Part shown: piece after piece, positions 21,409 through 32,663 of the stretch
Numbering within the stretch: the stretch's first letter is position 1
Layout: the number at the start of each line of letters is the position of its first letter
Source of the DNA: a virus
Reading direction: 5' to 3' (one strand)
Virus record (IMG/VR): IMGVR_UViG_3300013285_000025
Location: 1 to 45,400 of that record
DNA: 45,400 nucleotides
Notes under the pieces: generated by a model
Database searches by the model: none
What the model was told of the DNA's origin: nothing
What the model saw: only the letters and a program-made list of their open reading frames with translations
Translations under genes and position numbers: made by a program

Positions 21409-22004
21409 CTACTGCACATTATTTTCCAAATAAAGGATTCTTAGAAGTAAAATTACAAGAAGAAAATTTAGTCACGTTAAAAAATGAAGTTGCAGAGATT
21501 CAAGCTGACCCATCAAACATTGAAAAATTTAATACCACACTGGCTGGAAATATTAAACGTGAATATAAAATTACAAAATCACATAATGATATTGAACGAT
21601 TAGTTTTGCCATACGTTAATGCGTATGTTCGTGAATATTTTAAAACTGAAGGAAACTTAAAACTTAATAGTGTCTGGGTAAATTTTCAAGAGAAATATGA
21701 ATTTAATCCATTACATTCTCATATTGGAATGTACTCGTTTGTTCTCTGGTTAAAAATTCCATATAACATAGAAGATGAACTGGCCAATGGTCCAGGAAAT
21801 TCTTCACTTAATAATCTTGCTGGAACTTTTCAGTTTATGTTTTTTGATTCGATGGGAGTAATACAACCTTACAACATTTATGCTGATAAAAAATACGAAA
21901 ATACGTTGATCGTATTCCCAGCAGCACTTTTTCATTGCGTTCATCCATTTTATACTTCTGATGAATATCGAATTTCAGTTTCAGGAAACTTTATACTAAC
22001 ATGA
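21405..22004 (+). CDS. 2OG-Fe(II) oxygenase-like protein
   Basis: The 199-residue protein has LHSHIGMYSFV (H104-x-H106), FHCVHPFYTSDEYRISVSGN with His177 and His180, and R189. WVNFQEKYEFNPLHSH is the hallmark lead-in of the TIGR02466 oxygenases of marine phages. An acidic ligand at the second HxH position is missing, as in several other copies here. It is ATGA-coupled on both sides, to a membrane protein and to UvdE. Confidence 0.8.
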   Translation: MTTAHYFPNKGFLEVKLQEENLVTLKNEVAEIQADPSNIEKFNTTLAGNIKREYKITKSHNDIERLVLPYVNAYVREYFKTEGNLKLNSVWVNFQEKYEFNPLHSHIGMYSFVLWLKIPYNIEDELANGPGNSSLNNLAGTFQFMFFDSMGVIQPYNIYADKKYENTLIVFPAALFHCVHPFYTSDEYRISVSGNFILT

Positions 22005-23032
22005 CTACACTCGGTAAAATTGGTTTTGCTTGTAAATGGATAGATACACCAGAACAAGTTGAATGTATTGGTGTAAAAGACGATGCTCGTAAGTACTCAA
22101 CAGGTACTACTACTATCGCTTGGCTCTCTCGTCAAAGTGTAGAAGTTGCTGAACAAAAACTTTACAATCTAGTAAAGCAAAATCTGCAAAACACACTTAA
22201 TCTTGTAATTAAGGTTTCTACATTACCAGAGCGTTTGCGTATGGTCAGACTTTCCAGTGAAATCTTACCAGTATATACTCACAAAAACTGGTCTTACTTT
22301 TACAAACGTAATGATGTTATTAGATTAACAGAATATTGTTTTAACAAGATAGGTGACGTTGCTAGAGCTTCTGGTGTTCGCCTTTCTTTTCATCCAGGAC
22401 AGTTTACTGTGCTTGCATCAGAGAATCCAGGTATTGTTAATAACTCTATTGATGAGTTTGAATATCATGCTGATATGGCACGTATGATGGGCTATGGTAA
22501 AACATTTCAAGACTTTAAAATTAATGTACATATCTCAGGCAAACTTGGACCAGAAGGTATTCGTGCAGCATATAAACGATTATCAATTGAAGCACGTAAT
22601 TGTATCACTATCGAGAATGAAGAAAATGCGTGGGGTCTTGACGACTCTCTAGAACTTGCTGATTTGTTGCCAATTGTTCTTGACGTACATCATCACTGGT
22701 GTCGTGAGGGTGAGTGGCTTGATCCAACAAATACTCGTGTTCAGCGTGTTATTGATTCATGGCGTGGTGTTCGTCCAACTATGCATTATTCGCAATCTCG
22801 TGAAGATTATCTTATTGGTCATGCAACTTATGCTCAACCAGACATGAATGCTTTAAAAGACATGGGATACAAAAAACAAAAACTGCGTGCTCATTCAGAT
22901 TTTTACTGGAACACTGCAACAAATGATTGGGTATTAGGTTATTTGTCAACTCATGATATTATGTGTGAAAGCAAAGCAAAAAATCTTTCAAGTTTTGCTC
23001 TTTATGAGAAATCGCTTACTGTATGCACATAG
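22001..23032 (+). CDS. uvdE: UV damage endonuclease (UvdE/UvsE)
   Basis: The 343-residue length fits UvdE. The TIM-barrel metal-binding sites are visible: RLSFHPGQFTVLAS, DEFEYHADMARMMG, INVHISGK, ITIENEE, IVLDVHHHWC and MHYSQSRED. The enzyme nicks DNA 5' of UV photoproducts such as cyclobutane dimers and 6-4 products, starting repair without a glycosylase. For a virus of sunlit water this replaces the DenV or photolyase route of other phages. It overlaps the preceding oxygenase by four bases. Confidence is high. Confidence 0.95.
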   Translation: MTTLGKIGFACKWIDTPEQVECIGVKDDARKYSTGTTTIAWLSRQSVEVAEQKLYNLVKQNLQNTLNLVIKVSTLPERLRMVRLSSEILPVYTHKNWSYFYKRNDVIRLTEYCFNKIGDVARASGVRLSFHPGQFTVLASENPGIVNNSIDEFEYHADMARMMGYGKTFQDFKINVHISGKLGPEGIRAAYKRLSIEARNCITIENEENAWGLDDSLELADLLPIVLDVHHHWCREGEWLDPTNTRVQRVIDSWRGVRPTMHYSQSREDYLIGHATYAQPDMNALKDMGYKKQKLRAHSDFYWNTATNDWVLGYLSTHDIMCESKAKNLSSFALYEKSLTVCT

Positions 23033-24743: not shown

Positions 24744-25360
24744 TAACAGTAGAACAGTTTCATAAACTTTTCCCAAGCAACCCAGAACCAGAGTTATGGG
24801 CAAACGCAATGGCAGAAGTATTCCCCACTTACGGTATTGATACCCCACAACGTATCGCTGCATTCCTTGCTCAATGTGGCCATGAGTCTGGTGGGTGGAC
24901 AGTATTTGAAGAAAACCTTTATTACTCCGCTCAAGGATTAACTAAGGTATTCCCAAGATATTTCCCAACACTAGACTCAGCAGCAGCCTTTGCTAAAAAA
25001 CCAGAGATGATTGCCAATAAGATCTATGCCAATCGTATGGGTAATGGTGGTCCAGAAACAGGTGATGGTTATCGCTATCGTGGACGTGGTCCGATTCAAT
25101 TAACTGGTAAAGCAAACTATATCTCATTCGCAAAAGACATGTTTGACGACTGGGAAAATTTACTTTCTAATCCTGACTGGGTTACGTTTGATAAAGATTT
25201 TGCTTTGATGTCTGCTATTTGGTTCTGGAATAAAAATGGTTTAAACAAAGAAGCAGATGCAGGTGATATAAAAACAATGACACGTAAAATCAATGGTGGT
25301 TACATTGGTCTTGAAGATCGTATTAAACATTATAATGAGTGCATCGCAGAATTGGCTTAA
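24740..25360 (+). CDS. GH19-family endolysin (lysozyme/chitinase-like)
   Basis: The 206-residue protein is a glycoside hydrolase family 19 domain. Its elements are AAFLAQCGHESGGWT with His48 and catalytic Glu49, NLYYSAQGL, a second acid near YANRMGN, and YRGRGPIQLTGKANY. No signal peptide or membrane anchor is seen, so export would need a holin such as the one encoded at 35826. It would cleave peptidoglycan glycan strands at lysis. A second GH19 domain occurs in the gp5 homologue at 41347. Confidence 0.9.
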   Translation: MITVEQFHKLFPSNPEPELWANAMAEVFPTYGIDTPQRIAAFLAQCGHESGGWTVFEENLYYSAQGLTKVFPRYFPTLDSAAAFAKKPEMIANKIYANRMGNGGPETGDGYRYRGRGPIQLTGKANYISFAKDMFDDWENLLSNPDWVTFDKDFALMSAIWFWNKNGLNKEADAGDIKTMTRKINGGYIGLEDRIKHYNECIAELA

Positions 25361-26013
25361 TGAAAACATTTATATATCATGATTTCCCTAAACTTGAACG
25401 TGACACCGCACCAAATGGTTCGAGGGTATACAAAACCCCTTCGGGTCGAGCCTATCCCTCCGTTACAACAGTTACAGGACTGCACTCAGCAAAGGGAATC
25501 GCAGAATGGCGAAAGAGGGTCGGGGAAACAGAAGCAAACCGAATCTCTGGGAAGGCATCAGCAAGAGGAACAAGAATTCACCAGTATTGTGAAGACTATT
25601 TACGAGGAAATATATTCGAAGCAGATATGTTCGACCTCGAAATGTTCAACTCCATCAAACCCCTACTTGACCAAGTCGATAACATCCACTGCTTGGAAAC
25701 TCCATTATGGTCTGACCATTTACAAGTCGCTGGCACAGTTGACTGTATCGCAGAGTTCCAAGGTAAACTCTCTGTCATAGATTTTAAGACATCCAGCAAA
25801 CCCAAAGATAGAGATGACATTCATAATTATTTTATGCAGACTGCAGCATATGCAGTAGCGTTTGAAGAAAGAACAGGAATACCTATTGGTAGACTAGTAA
25901 TTATTATGGCAGTTGACAGTGATGATCCAAGATGGTTCATTGAGAAACGAGACAACTGGATTGGTGGTTTTAGAAAGTTACGATTAGATTTTAAAAACTT
26001 GAAAGGAATATAA
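25360..26013 (+). CDS. PD-(D/E)XK exonuclease-like protein
   Basis: The 217-residue protein has the Cas4/MGME1-like nuclease core: ASARGTRIHQYCEDYLRG, LETPLWSDHLQVAGTVDCIA (core Asp) and KLSVIDFKTSSK (the E/D-x-K part), followed by YFMQTAAYAVAFEERTG. It probably degrades or trims DNA during recombination or host DNA breakdown. The start at 25360 overlaps the lysin stop by one base. The frame from 25339 is inside the lysin. Confidence 0.87.
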   Translation: MKTFIYHDFPKLERDTAPNGSRVYKTPSGRAYPSVTTVTGLHSAKGIAEWRKRVGETEANRISGKASARGTRIHQYCEDYLRGNIFEADMFDLEMFNSIKPLLDQVDNIHCLETPLWSDHLQVAGTVDCIAEFQGKLSVIDFKTSSKPKDRDDIHNYFMQTAAYAVAFEERTGIPIGRLVIIMAVDSDDPRWFIEKRDNWIGGFRKLRLDFKNLKGI

Positions 26014-26241
26014 ATGGTCCAGCCTAAATTTTATGAAAAAACAATGCGATCTCTTGGTAAAGTAGTAACATGGCGTATTTTAGTAACTATTACTAATTTC
26101 GTTGGTGGATATCTTGCATCAGGTTCTTGGGTAGTCGGTTTAGGTGTTGTTTCGTTTGCTCTTGTGGTAAACTCAATCCTTTACTTCTTCCACGAACGTA
26201 CATGGAATAAAATTGATGCAGGTAAAGAAATAAAAGAATAG
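26014..26241 (+). CDS. DUF2061 membrane protein
   Basis: The 75-residue protein has the DUF2061 pattern: an N-terminal SLGKVVTWRILVTITNF, two membrane helices around residues 17-35 and 39-57, and the family end FHERTWNKI. Bacterial homologues are small inner-membrane proteins of unknown role. A GAAAGGA site precedes the start. It ends directly before the tmRNA promoter. Confidence 0.88.
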   Translation: MVQPKFYEKTMRSLGKVVTWRILVTITNFVGGYLASGSWVVGLGVVSFALVVNSILYFFHERTWNKIDAGKEIKE

Positions 26242-26270
26242 TTGCTTTACAAACATATATAATGTATAAT
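26242..26270 (+). promoter_or_regulatory. promoter of the tmRNA gene
   Basis: TTGCTT at 26242-26247 and TATAAT at 26265-26270 are spaced by 17. The -35 overlaps the DUF2061 stop. The sequence resembles the promoter at 1794 (TTGCTTT... TAATGTATAAT) and differs from the GGTATAAT family. Transcription should start near 26277. Confidence 0.8.
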
Positions 26271-26497
26271 AAGTGATATTGCTGTATGAAGCAAAGAGAA
26301 AAGTGTTCTGGACGGGAGTTCGATTCTCCCCACCTCCACCAAAAGCATTTGCGTATTAGCCGAACCAGAAATGATGTATTCGGGGGAATGTAAATCGAAA
26401 AGTGCTTTTGATGGGGGTGACTAGGTTTCGACAGGGCAACAAGTAAATGCGTGGACAGCACGACACAGATAGTCGTAAAAACTAAAACAACGTAAAC

Positions 26498-26530
26498 GCA
26501 AACGACGCACAGTTCGCATTAGCAGCCTAA
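26498..26530 (+). other. tmRNA proteolysis tag reading frame
   Basis: The frame GCA AAC GAC GCA CAG TTC GCA TTA GCA GCC TAA gives ANDAQFALAA, ending in the ALAA degron recognised by ClpXP. It is preceded by TAAAC, typical before the resume codon, and followed by ACACTGCTTAG, matching the conserved helix after the tag. Confidence 0.9.
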
Positions 26531-26548
26531 ACACTGCTTAGGGTTTCG

Positions 26549-26587
26549 GTAGGTTTCCTCGTAACAGAATAACCTACTACATTTTTT
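26549..26587 (+). terminator. terminator hairpin at the tmRNA 3' end
   Basis: GTAGGTT at 26549-26555 pairs with AACCTAC at 26571-26577, followed by TACATTTTTT. It probably ends the coding piece of the tmRNA transcript. Confidence 0.75.
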
Positions 26588-26608
26588 AAATTTAAAAAGG
26601 TATTATAA

Positions 26609-27052
26609 ATGAAAAACTTAATTCTTGTAGCTGCACTTATGACCACACTTTCTGCACAAGCAGTTGAGTTTGGTGTGAATGGAAGCGCGGATACTGCTAA
26701 TACAGATCGCACTGGTTATGGCGTAACAATTGGTCAGAAATTTGACAAGGTTGGCGTAACTGCTGGTTTTGATCGTTATACTAAAGGTAACGACCTTGAC
26801 AAATATACTGTAATTGGTTCTTATGATGTTACTAAAGTTGGCACTGCCACTGTTGCTGTTAAAGCAGGTGCTGCATATTTAAACCAGAAAACTGGTAGTG
26901 ATGGTTATGCAGCGTTGATTGGTGCTGGGGTTTCTATTCCAGTTACTACTTCTGTAGCCGCAACTGTTGATTATCGTTATCAAGCAGGACAAAGTCGTGT
27001 TAACAATCTAGATGGTAGTACTGTTACTGCTGGTATTAAATACTCATTCTAA
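26609..27052 (+). CDS. outer-membrane beta-barrel protein
   Basis: The 147-residue protein has a clean signal peptide (cut after SAQA, residue 18). The mature part is made of amphipathic strands (GYGVTIGQKF, VGVTAGFDRY, YTVIGSYDV, ATVAVKAGAAY, VAATVDYRYQAG) and ends in Tyr-Ser-Phe, the terminal aromatic signal for BAM-mediated insertion. The size suggests an eight-strand barrel like OmpX/OmpA. An AAAAAGG site precedes it. A phage-made porin-like protein could mask receptors or alter permeability, but this is conjecture. Confidence 0.8.
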   Translation: MKNLILVAALMTTLSAQAVEFGVNGSADTANTDRTGYGVTIGQKFDKVGVTAGFDRYTKGNDLDKYTVIGSYDVTKVGTATVAVKAGAAYLNQKTGSDGYAALIGAGVSIPVTTSVAATVDYRYQAGQSRVNNLDGSTVTAGIKYSF

Positions 27053-27054
27053 TT

Positions 27055-27318
27055 ATGGAAATTAAACCACTGAGAAAAATGGTTTTGATCGCTGAGAATG
27101 CAGTCGATCAAACCACTGGATCTGGGATTATTCTTGACGGAACAACATCTGCTCGAGATTCAAAAACTGGAACAGTCCTTGCAATAGGTTCTGAGGTTAC
27201 TGATGTTAAAGTTGGTGACAAAGTTTATTTGGAATGGAATAAAGGTCAAGTCGTTAAGATTGACGATGCGCAACGTGTAATGATTAAAGAAGAATTTATT
27301 GTTGCAGTGGTTGATTGA
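27055..27318 (+). CDS. groES: GroES-like co-chaperonin
   Basis: The 87-residue protein follows GroES from end to end: IKPLRKMVLIAENAVD, GSGIILDGTTS in the mobile-loop region, SKTGTVLAIGSEV, VKVGDKVYLEWNKG and a final IKEEFIVAVVD strand. It would cap host GroEL, as T4 gp31 does for capsid folding, but it resembles host GroES more than gp31. It starts two bases after the outer-membrane protein stop and overlaps the next gene at TGATG. Confidence 0.92.
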   Translation: MEIKPLRKMVLIAENAVDQTTGSGIILDGTTSARDSKTGTVLAIGSEVTDVKVGDKVYLEWNKGQVVKIDDAQRVMIKEEFIVAVVD

Positions 27319-28533: not shown

Positions 28534-29130
28534 ATGCGTACATACCGTATATACATACCAATAATATTATTATTTTTAAGCGTTATATTATTAACAAAAA
28601 ATATATTTTCTGATGCTATACTACTTGATGTAAGTTACAACCAACTAACTAAAGAAACACAAACACAGATCGATTGTCTTGCCGAAAATATTTACCACGA
28701 AGCTGGCTTTGAATCCAGACAAGGTAAGGAAGCAGTTGCTCTCGTTACACTTAATAGGATGCAAGATCCTAGATTCCCGAAAGATATATGTGGAGTTGTT
28801 AAACAGAAAACAACTTCAGTTTGTCAATTTTCATGGTTCTGTCACAACCCATCTATAAAAAATAAAGATGCTTATGAAGACGCAAAACAAGTAGCAGTTT
28901 ATGTCTATGCTAATTATGAAAATTTAAAAGACATTACAAAGGGTGCATTATATTATCATGCAGATTATGTAAATCCAAAATGGAAACTCGAAAAGACTAC
29001 TGTAATAGGTAGACATATTTTTTATAAAGAAGGTGGTAAATACTATGATGTCAAAAATGAATCTGCAACTGAAGGAAGAACAGTCAAAACACTCTTTCAT
29101 GCTTCTGATGGAGGAGATTACTCTTACTAG
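28534..29130 (+). CDS. SleB-type cell-wall hydrolase with N-terminal anchor
   Basis: The 198-residue protein has one hydrophobic helix near residues 5-24 and then a Hydrolase_2 (SleB/CwlJ) domain: LAENIYHEAGFESRQGKEAVALV with catalytic Glu56, VTLNRMQDPRFP, and VCQFSWFC. The domain is a lytic transglycosylase-like peptidoglycan hydrolase. The N-terminal helix may act as a signal-anchor. AAGGAGAT precedes the ATG at 28534. The frame from 28489 begins in the terminator. It overlaps the ClpP gene by 86 bases. Confidence 0.87.
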   Translation: MRTYRIYIPIILLFLSVILLTKNIFSDAILLDVSYNQLTKETQTQIDCLAENIYHEAGFESRQGKEAVALVTLNRMQDPRFPKDICGVVKQKTTSVCQFSWFCHNPSIKNKDAYEDAKQVAVYVYANYENLKDITKGALYYHADYVNPKWKLEKTTVIGRHIFYKEGGKYYDVKNESATEGRTVKTLFHASDGGDYSY

Positions 29131-29602
29131 CGTTAAAACTGCTGTTGAGTGGATTTTTGAAGCGAACTTCTCTGAAGAACCACCAGAACTACTTAATTTA
29201 ATTATTACTAGTCCAGGTGGGGATCTTAATGCCGCATTTGCATTAATTGACACAATGAAGGGTTCAGCAATACCAGTTAGAACAATTGGTCTTGGTCAAG
29301 TTGCTTCTGCTGGACTTATGATTTTTATTGCTGGCGCCAAAGGACATCGTCTACTTACTCCAAATACTTCTATTCTGAGTCATCAATACTCATGGGGTGC
29401 ATTTGGTAAAGAACATGAACTTTTTGCTACTGTAAAAGAATTTGACTTAACTACGAAAAAAATGATTGCACACTATAAAAAGTGCACTGGTTTATCTGAA
29501 GCGAAAATACGTGAGGTATTATTGCCACCTCAAGATATTTGGTTAAGCGCAATTGAAGCAAAAAAATTAGGACTATGTGATGACATTAAAGACCTTACTT
29601 AA
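29045..29602 (+). CDS. clpP: ClpP-like serine protease
   Basis: The 185-residue protein has a complete ClpP triad: Ser88 in GQVASAGLM, His113 in SHQYSWG and Asp164 in PPQDIWLSA, with spacings close to E. coli ClpP (97, 122, 171). ITSPGGDLNAAFALID is the family handle region. The N-terminal 30 residues differ from host ClpP, so pairing with ClpX is uncertain. The start at 29045 follows AGGTGG by eight bases; 29048 is also possible. It may degrade tmRNA-tagged or structural proteins. Confidence 0.9.
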   Translation: MMSKMNLQLKEEQSKHSFMLLMEEITLTSVKTAVEWIFEANFSEEPPELLNLIITSPGGDLNAAFALIDTMKGSAIPVRTIGLGQVASAGLMIFIAGAKGHRLLTPNTSILSHQYSWGAFGKEHELFATVKEFDLTTKKMIAHYKKCTGLSEAKIREVLLPPQDIWLSAIEAKKLGLCDDIKDLT

Positions 29603-30691: not shown

Positions 30692-30899
30692 ATCTTCGAA
30701 CGACTTTTCAATGCATATTGAGCAAATTGTTCGTGACAAAAAGATATCTTACATGGAAGCTGTTCTTCAATATTGTAAAGAAAACTTTATTGAACCCCAA
30801 GATGTAGAGAAACTTGTTAATAAATCCCTTAAAGATAAACTTGTGGTAAATTTTCAAGATGAAAACTACTTACCTAAAAGAGCAAAATTGGATGTGTGA
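30684..30899 (+). CDS. gp33: late transcription coactivator gp33-like
   Basis: The 71-residue protein matches the gp33 pattern of aquatic T4-like phages: IEQIVRDKKISYMEAVLQYC, NKSLKDKLVVNFQDENYLPK. In T4, gp33 binds the polymerase beta flap and links it to the sliding clamp for late transcription from TATAAATA promoters with gp55. The position directly upstream of gp59 and near gp32 repeats the T4 order. The ATG at 30684 is inside the preceding gene's end. Confidence 0.8.
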   Translation: MFKSSNDFSMHIEQIVRDKKISYMEAVLQYCKENFIEPQDVEKLVNKSLKDKLVVNFQDENYLPKRAKLDV

Positions 30900-31507
30900 T
30901 GGATGGGTTTAAAGCGTATCGCTATTACCTTGCATTAAAATTACACTTTACTTCTGAAAAATTTAACGTCTTCGAAAATAGAGGAAATGTTAGAGGTTCA
31001 CGTGAAGCATTTAATGCTAGGAATGATAGATATATATTTGAGAAGCTGGCAAAAAAGTTCGGCAATGATCGTGATATTATTCAGTTCTTTGTTGCTAACT
31101 TTGCTTACGGTAATGAATCTGCAATTTACGCAGGTCAAGAATCTGATGATAATTTAGCCGAGTGGAACAAAACAAAACAAAGTATTACTAAAATCTTTAT
31201 TGATGATCTAGCGTCTTTATTGACTCATGTTGAGATAAATAAGTTACCAACTAATAGTATTTTTGATTTTAACTTTAACCAATATCCTGTTGCATTAACA
31301 TTATTTCTTGCCAATAAAATTTCAATTGAAACACTTGTAATTATAAATGAACTTGATCATATTATTGAACACTGGCTTGACAATACTTCAGTACAGTATA
31401 TTTGGAATAATGAATTCTTACGAATACAGAAGTTAACAGGTTTCGTTAAATACGATAAAAATAAATTAAGTAAAATATTTACACATTTCGTTCAAGAGTT
31501 AGATTAA
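30899..31507 (+). CDS. gp59: helicase loader gp59-like
   Basis: The 202-residue protein (T4 gp59 is 217) starts MDGFKAYRYYLALKLHFTSEKFNVFENRGNVRGS. This two-helix start with a basic DNA-binding RGNVRGSREAFNARND is typical of gp59 homologues. It loads the gp41 helicase on forked DNA coated with gp32. The ATG overlaps the gp33 stop (a GTG three bases before is possible). Synteny with gp33 and gp32 supports the call. Confidence 0.85.
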   Translation: MDGFKAYRYYLALKLHFTSEKFNVFENRGNVRGSREAFNARNDRYIFEKLAKKFGNDRDIIQFFVANFAYGNESAIYAGQESDDNLAEWNKTKQSITKIFIDDLASLLTHVEINKLPTNSIFDFNFNQYPVALTLFLANKISIETLVIINELDHIIEHWLDNTSVQYIWNNEFLRIQKLTGFVKYDKNKLSKIFTHFVQELD

Positions 31508-31751: not shown

Positions 31752-32663
31752 ATGGACATTCAAACACTCCGCAAAATGCGCAATCAAGACTTCGGTAAAA
31801 TTACTGAACAGTTTGATAAAATTGCAAATCCCCAGTCAGGCGAAAAGAAGTCTTATCAAGACGATCGCTTTTGGCGTCTAGAAGGTGATAAAGCTGGTAA
31901 TGGTACAGCTACTCTCCGATTCCTACCACGTGTAGAAGGTGATGAACTCCCATGGGTTCGCATGTTCAACCACGGATTCCAAGGTCCAACTGGAAAATGG
32001 TATATTGAAAACTCTCTAACAACTCTTGGTGAAAATGATCCAGTCGGTGAATTGAACACCATGCTTTGGAACTCAGGTTCTGATGCAAACAAAGAGATTG
32101 CTCGTAAACAGAAACGTAAGTTGTCATTTATTGCCAACGTACTAATCGTTTCAGATCCTAAGCATCCCGAGAATGAAGGACAGGTTAAACTGTTCAAGTT
32201 CGGTAAGAAAATCTTTGATAAGATTATGGATAAAGCACGTCCGACTTTTGAAGATGAAAAGCCAGTAAACGTGTTTGATTTGTGGGAAGGTGCCAACTTT
32301 AAATTGCGTATGCGCAAGAAAGATGGTTATGCTAACTACGATGAGTCAATCTTTTCTGACCCATGTCCTGTTGCTGAAAGTGATGAAGAAATTGTTCGTA
32401 TCGTTAATGCTCAAAATAAGTTGTCTGAGTTTACCGATCGTAGTAATTTCAAGTCTTATGATGAATTGAAGAAGAAACTTGATGCAGTTCTTTCTGGTGA
32501 TACTTTTGCAGGTAAGTCTGCTGCGCAGATGGCTGAAGAAGATCGTCCGGTTGCTCAAGCACCTACCTTTGCTTCTAAGGCAGCACCTACTCAGAAGTCA
32601 ATCGATACTGATGACGATGAAGATGTAATGTCTTATTTTAAGAAAATTGCTGCAGAAGAATAA
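31752..32663 (+). CDS. gp32: single-stranded DNA-binding protein gp32
   Basis: The 303-residue protein matches T4 gp32 (301): an N-terminal cooperativity domain, an OB-fold core with LSFIANVLIVSDPKHPENEGQV and KFGKKIFDKIMDKA, then an acidic tail (DTDDDEDVMSYF) that recruits replication proteins. Only one Cys is present, so the T4 zinc site (three Cys and one His) is lost. It coats single-stranded DNA in replication, recombination and repair. An AAAGGAAA site lies before the ATG, and a strong terminator follows. Confidence 0.96.
   Translation: MDIQTLRKMRNQDFGKITEQFDKIANPQSGEKKSYQDDRFWRLEGDKAGNGTATLRFLPRVEGDELPWVRMFNHGFQGPTGKWYIENSLTTLGENDPVGELNTMLWNSGSDANKEIARKQKRKLSFIANVLIVSDPKHPENEGQVKLFKFGKKIFDKIMDKARPTFEDEKPVNVFDLWEGANFKLRMRKKDGYANYDESIFSDPCPVAESDEEIVRIVNAQNKLSEFTDRSNFKSYDELKKKLDAVLSGDTFAGKSAAQMAEEDRPVAQAPTFASKAAPTQKSIDTDDDEDVMSYFKKIAAEE

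Follow-up and report, generated by a model that had tools for sequence, protein, structure and literature searches.

A circularly permuted tmRNA gene of betaproteobacterial type on a fragment of a T4-like phage

A tmRNA frees stuck ribosomes and marks their unfinished proteins for destruction, and for a phage that keeps such a gene one may ask whether the RNA does no more than rescue ribosomes or instead directs degradation. The question is raised here by a linear 45.4 kb virus fragment (hereafter the window, meaning the whole stretch of 45,400 nt that was analysed), whose T4-like proteins (gp5 lysozyme, tail tube, gp59, gp32, DNA end protector and PhoH) place it among the T4-like myoviruses. 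Intact genes, a conserved site, tags unseen in bacteria and the usual presence of ClpP make the question testable, and the cultured relatives BUCT-ZZ01 and Melnitz permit experiments.

A preliminary description of the window had proposed a complete permuted tmRNA gene on a phage and suggested the Rfam permuted-tmRNA models as a check. ARAGORN returns a permuted call (tmRNA*) spanning 26249-26621 with the tag ANDAQFALAA (tag frame 26498-26530), and together with two Rfam models it places the gene on the + strand at about 26276-26582. The beta_tmRNA model (RF01850) scores 130.4 bits (E 1.3e-39, cut-off 84) and tmRNA_permuted (RF04321) 126.1 bits (cut-off 47), versus 67.6 bits for the alpha model. 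The three calls agree, and a complete permuted tmRNA of betaproteobacterial type on a phage is confirmed at the level of sequence models. The accompanying list of occurrences of permuted tmRNA (alphaproteobacteria, cyanobacteria and some betaproteobacteria) was incomplete in that it omitted phages, where such genes were already published (PMC9004378). The elements of the gene are as follows.

26242..26275, + strand: promoter region, with a weak -35 TTGCTT (26242-26247), a 17-nt spacer and a -10 TATAAT (26265-26270)
26276..26341, + strand: acceptor piece (ARAGORN, Rfam, covariation; 5′ end inferred)
26342..26412, + strand: intervening segment of 71 nt, predicted to be removed from the precursor, with closing stem AAAAGCA/UGCUUUU
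26413..26582, + strand: coding piece (ARAGORN, Rfam, covariation; 3′ end approximate)
26498..26530, + strand: tag reading frame, ANDAQFALAA and stop TAA (ARAGORN)
26549..26587, + strand: 3′ helix GUAGGUU/AACCUAC (26549-26555 with 26571-26577; strong covariation), then six T (26582-26587)

Direct reading of the sequence bears out the order first noticed, with the acceptor half and its encoded CCA (26339-26341) upstream of a coding half that starts at 26413. The acceptor piece runs from UGCUG (5′ part of the inter-piece helix) through the T stem-loop and the 3′ acceptor strand to the CCA, which is completed by its A in 136 of 152 related genes. The coding piece consists of GGGGGUG (5′ acceptor strand), UUUCGAC, strands of the inter-piece helices (CAG, GCA and CAGCA), the PK1 stem CGAC/GUCG, the tag frame and the 3′ helix. 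The seven acceptor pairs, described from the outset as perfect save one G-U, are G26413-C26337, G26414-C26336, G26415.U26335, G26416-C26334, G26417-C26333, U26418-A26332 and G26419-C26331, the sole G.U being the third pair, G3.U70. In tRNA-Ala and in tmRNA this pair is the established site of alanine identity, and the G.U is thus a functional mark and no blemish. The stem said to close the removed segment, AAAGCA/TGCTTT, is seen as AAAAGCA/UGCUUUU, which includes the A of the CCA and is supported in viral relatives.

Related genes from viral contigs were aligned and pairs were counted over 110 distinct rows. Pairing reaches 100% in the T stem (85 two-sided changes), 90% in the 3′ helix (114) and 82% in the inter-piece helix UGCUG/CAGCA (95). 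When the partner strand was slid by 1-3 columns, the inter-piece and 3′ helices lost their pairing, and the T stem was still 57-89% paired but with few two-sided changes. For the PK1 stem (77% of cells paired) gaps in the alignment make the picture less distinct, and G3.U70 is invariant in 96 of the 96 viral rows having letters on both sides. A removed-segment stem of at least 6 pairs is present in 65 of 95 viral segments, versus a mean of 20.5 and a maximum of 31 when ends were swapped between loci. Free single-strand folding of the precursor, a method poorly suited to a permuted, pseudoknotted RNA, gave a z of only -2, dominated by the removed-segment stem. Both the intra-piece and the inter-piece helices covary, as does the stem that closes the removed segment, and judging from these alignments the RNA is therefore under selection.

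Among the 91 viral tags of the window form, residues 1-3, 7, 9 and 10 never change, residue 8 hardly does (L 89, I 2), and residues 4 and 5 are variable; a tree built with the tag masked shows 39 tag changes versus a minimum of 14. The conserved residues indicate that the resume codon and the C-terminal LAA read by ClpX are retained; the window tag itself has an Ala resume codon, a stop and a degradation-type C terminus. The form (A)AND..[FY]ALAA also retains the E. coli tag positions that SspB is known to use.

The claim that the gene has its own promoter and terminator stands only in part. Its strong -10 element, a perfect TATAAT, recurs in many relatives: TATAAT lies within 40 nt upstream in 51 of 86 distinct relatives' regions (59%) versus 6% of control windows, a 10-fold enrichment, mostly 13-14 nt ahead of the mature 5′ end, and the window has a second copy at 26258-26263. 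The -35 is weak, and a generic promoter/terminator scan made no call at the tmRNA gene. The motif ATAAATA, which resembles the T4 late promoter (e.g., viral loci L041, L072 and L087), is found upstream in about a quarter of the viral loci (23% of the 86 regions versus 2% of controls) and suggests that expression timing may differ between phages. At the 3′ end, GUAGGUU/AACCUAC followed by six T is a plausible candidate intrinsic terminator in the window that is not general among relatives, of which only 30 of 69 have a comparable T-rich 3′ flank.

In loci collected via gp32, the tmRNA lies between a PD-(D/E)XK exonuclease and a block of cell-wall hydrolase, gp59 and gp32. The order PhoH, PD-(D/E)XK, tmRNA, gp59, gp32 is found in the window, in Melnitz and in gp32-centred viral loci, and the window's neighbourhood comprises:

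25339..26013, + strand: PD-(D/E)XK exonuclease, upstream side of the conserved tmRNA site (same order in Melnitz)
26014..26241, + strand: DUF2061 membrane protein, directly upstream of the tmRNA
26609..27052, + strand: OmpA/YfaZ-like outer-membrane protein, directly downstream of the tmRNA (weak, E about 1e-4)
27055..27318, + strand: GroES-like co-chaperonin (PF00166, E 2.8e-15)
29033..29602, + strand: ClpP protease subunit (PF00574, E 3.3e-30)
30896..31507, + strand: gp59 helicase loader (T4-like)
31752..32663, + strand: gp32 single-strand DNA-binding protein, the anchor for collecting relatives

The same site is common to window-type phages and to phages with alpha-like tags such as ANDNVAFAGYALAA. 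Beta/alpha scores are graded across it (window 130/68 bits, L293 91/83, L304 52/50, Melnitz 25/107), a gradient that would fit an old, vertically inherited gene that has diverged as well as a gene replaced at the site. Elsewhere in the window, seven tRNA genes are clustered at 24-1281, including a Thr tRNA with anticodon AGT, and a UvdE-type UV endonuclease at 22001-23032 shares about 47% identity with its closest matches, from jumbo phages of Erwinia and Dickeya.

What would such a gene do? Our best reading is a long-resident phage tmRNA that would use host SmpB, AlaRS and ClpX and perhaps the phage's own ClpP; we consider it probable that this permuted gene is a functional resident of the phage and works with host machinery. 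Neither SmpB (0 of 36 tmRNA-bearing viral records) nor ClpX (0 of 26) was found in searches whose bacterial controls were positive, and as these records are mostly fragments, absence of the two proteins is unproven. From the gene, its tag, the covarying structure, the conserved locus, the nearby ClpP and the lack of a detected SmpB or ClpX, we infer transcription, processing, charging, tagging and a benefit to the phage along the following lines. A single precursor would be transcribed, probably from the gene's own -10 element; host tRNA-processing enzymes would cut out the 71-nt segment, and the acceptor and coding pieces would stay joined through the acceptor and inter-piece helices. Charged by host AlaRS via G3.U70, the tmRNA would be brought by host SmpB, in the infected cell, to ribosomes halted on broken messages and would append (A)ANDAQFALAA to the stalled products. 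Host ClpX, which reads the LAA ending of the tag (PMC9382460), would then feed the tagged product to ClpP, possibly also to the phage's own. Ribosomes and amino acids would in this way be freed for phage translation while host and phage messages are cut, the fragments being recycled.

ClpP is a subunit of the protease that degrades tagged proteins, and the phage copy invites a stronger interpretation. The preliminary suggestion that the gene may be kept to tag phage or host proteins thereby gains one concrete candidate partner. The window ClpP, whose catalytic-triad Ser, His and Asp align with solved ClpP chains, is encoded 2.5 kb downstream of the tmRNA, and the GroES-like gene also lies within 3 kb downstream. 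ClpP was found in 29 of 40 records searched; in gp32-centred loci whose upstream sequence is 6 kb or longer, it is close in 12 of 13 beta-type tmRNA loci versus 0 of 7 alpha-type loci, and in 0 of 9 gp32-centred loci without a tmRNA call (a group of which a re-check with Rfam covered only some). This distribution, the intact triad and the presence of both genes in BUCT-ZZ01 would favour a dedicated phage proteolysis module: tmRNA, ClpP and GroES would act in concert, and the phage's ClpP would retool host ClpXP for destroying tagged fragments of host or phage proteins and for recycling their amino acids. We nonetheless find such a module unlikely: the co-occurrence of tmRNA and ClpP tracks phylogeny, Melnitz-type phages have a tmRNA without ClpP, and ClpX was not found in the 26 viral records searched for it. 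As shared ancestry can explain the co-occurrence, a functional link between tmRNA and ClpP is at this level of evidence a lead only, and the phage ClpP could serve another role, e.g., in head maturation. It is likewise doubtful, though worth stating, that a widespread T4-like lineage has its own tagging-and-degradation route, with a phage tmRNA, phage-specific tags and mostly a phage ClpP evolving as a unit; if true, this unit would steer which proteins are destroyed during infection.

A long residence in phages, as in our preferred reading, has to be weighed against the possibility that an ssrA gene was recently captured from a betaproteobacterial host. Such a capture would account for the beta score of 130 bits versus 68 for alpha, and for the 10-residue form that the window tag shares with Burkholderiales tags. 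The tag itself points elsewhere. The exact sequence ANDAQFALAA matched 65 viral stretches and no contig from 84,980 bacterial and archaeal species (one genome each, short contigs excluded, with a pattern lacking its own positive control, so that a rare bacterial carrier is possible), and we found no mention of it in the papers searched. The earlier remark that the tag differs from the usual types is upheld. At residue 4, 63 of 69 Burkholderiales tags have E and none has A or S, whereas 59 of the 91 viral tags have A (37) or S (22). Only 16 of 399 Burkholderiales genomes exceed the beta_tmRNA cut-off, and one-piece tmRNAs are present in most of the other Burkholderiales genomes inspected. With the mature gene region as query, BLAST against 398 Pseudomonadota reached only the tRNA-like part, in three genomes. 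A FastTree phylogeny of 153 genes puts the window gene inside an all-viral clade of 94 sampled genes (support 0.957), although the viral set was chosen with motifs from the window, a bias toward clade purity; the clade is separate from the sampled bacterial genes, with weak deeper nodes (0.235). The preliminary suggestion of acquisition from a host with a permuted tmRNA is therefore not supported as a recent event, given the absence of the tag from the bacterial and archaeal contigs searched, the all-viral clade, the conserved phage locus and the BLAST result, and we regard recent capture as very improbable.

A near-identity DNA search among phages gave no close isolate, the sole match to the gene in a more distant search was weak (Xanthomonas phage Rb1), and a plasmid search returned only Thermus plasmids with tRNA-like matches. 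The exact TLD 30-mer of the window occurs in 15 genomes of the one-genome-per-species collection, mostly in one-piece tmRNAs of unrelated bacteria. In several Patescibacteria (Kaiserbacteria and similar; L162, L164, L168-L170 and L173) the one-piece tmRNAs carry long tags, e.g., ANKVARAVLSPIQMADLQPAYALVA. Other bacteria, namely Noviherbaspirillum (L176/L178), a Herminiimonas MAG (L163/L177) and L166/L179, have a one-piece tmRNA plus a second, permuted one whose tRNA-like core equals that of the window and whose tag is odd, such as VNNVYVEGKDIGSRF... or ANDANYLVQVYG.

The RNA might instead be a decoy that ties up host SmpB or ribosomes and so inhibits host trans-translation. That SmpB was not found in the 36 phage records would suit a decoy, and there is a precedent in a mycobacteriophage study (PMC4131195), where inhibition was proposed for the TLD-only RNA of phage DS6A. 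A TLD-only decoy would, however, need neither tag frame nor stop nor 3′ helix, all of which are conserved here, and this makes the idea hardly probable. Dead cargo or an attachment-site remnant of a prophage integrated into ssrA, a frequent phage integration site (general knowledge, mentioned in PMC9004378), was rejected with a probability close to nil, being contradicted by a complete gene with covarying helices and tag, by the conserved site in T4-like phages and by the lack of any integrase in 14 of 14 records (controls positive).

Phage-borne permuted tmRNA is already published: Melnitz, a phage of OM43, was described together with 53 two-piece tmRNAs, 50 of them from aquatic phages, in a set of 18,146 phage genomes (PMC9004378), and 79 phage tmRNAs of all forms have been listed (PMC11915505). 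The window gene adds a member to this group; we have found no earlier description of the set of phage-specific tags, of the conserved site common to beta- and alpha-type genes, or of the association with ClpP. Mycobacteriophages such as Bxz1 and Wildcat also carry tmRNA genes, but these form an actinobacterial-phage set for which the available part of their description reports neither permuted order nor beta type (PMC4131195). The Burkholderiales beta_tmRNAs (RF01850) share with the window gene the permuted order, the tRNA-like domain and a 10-residue tag ending in LAA or IAA; unlike it, they score up to 336 bits versus 130, have E instead of A at residue 4 and are separate in the tree. Methylophilales phage Melnitz (ssrA, MZ577097, PMC9004378) is, like the window, a T4-like phage with a permuted tmRNA in the equivalent place, from PhoH and the PD-(D/E)XK nuclease to gp59 and gp32, but its gene is of alpha type (107 bits alpha versus 25 beta) with the tag ANDNYVPVDYALAA, and ClpP was not found in its genome. 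Permuted tmRNAs are present without annotation in other isolates, namely Xanthomonas phage Rb1 (L161, tag ANDDNFRPALRLAA), Alcaligenes phage QDWS595 (L218, ANDNVYAAAA) and Synechococcus phage BUCT-ZZ01 (L216, ON615601.1 116861-117279, minus strand). Judged by tail protein and ClpP, the nearest isolate found is BUCT-ZZ01 (ON615601): like the window it has a permuted beta-type tmRNA (94.5 bits) and a ClpP, 54.5% identical, whereas its tag is ANDETFSMALAA and its tmRNA, part of a large tRNA cluster, is separated from clpP by about 41 kb.
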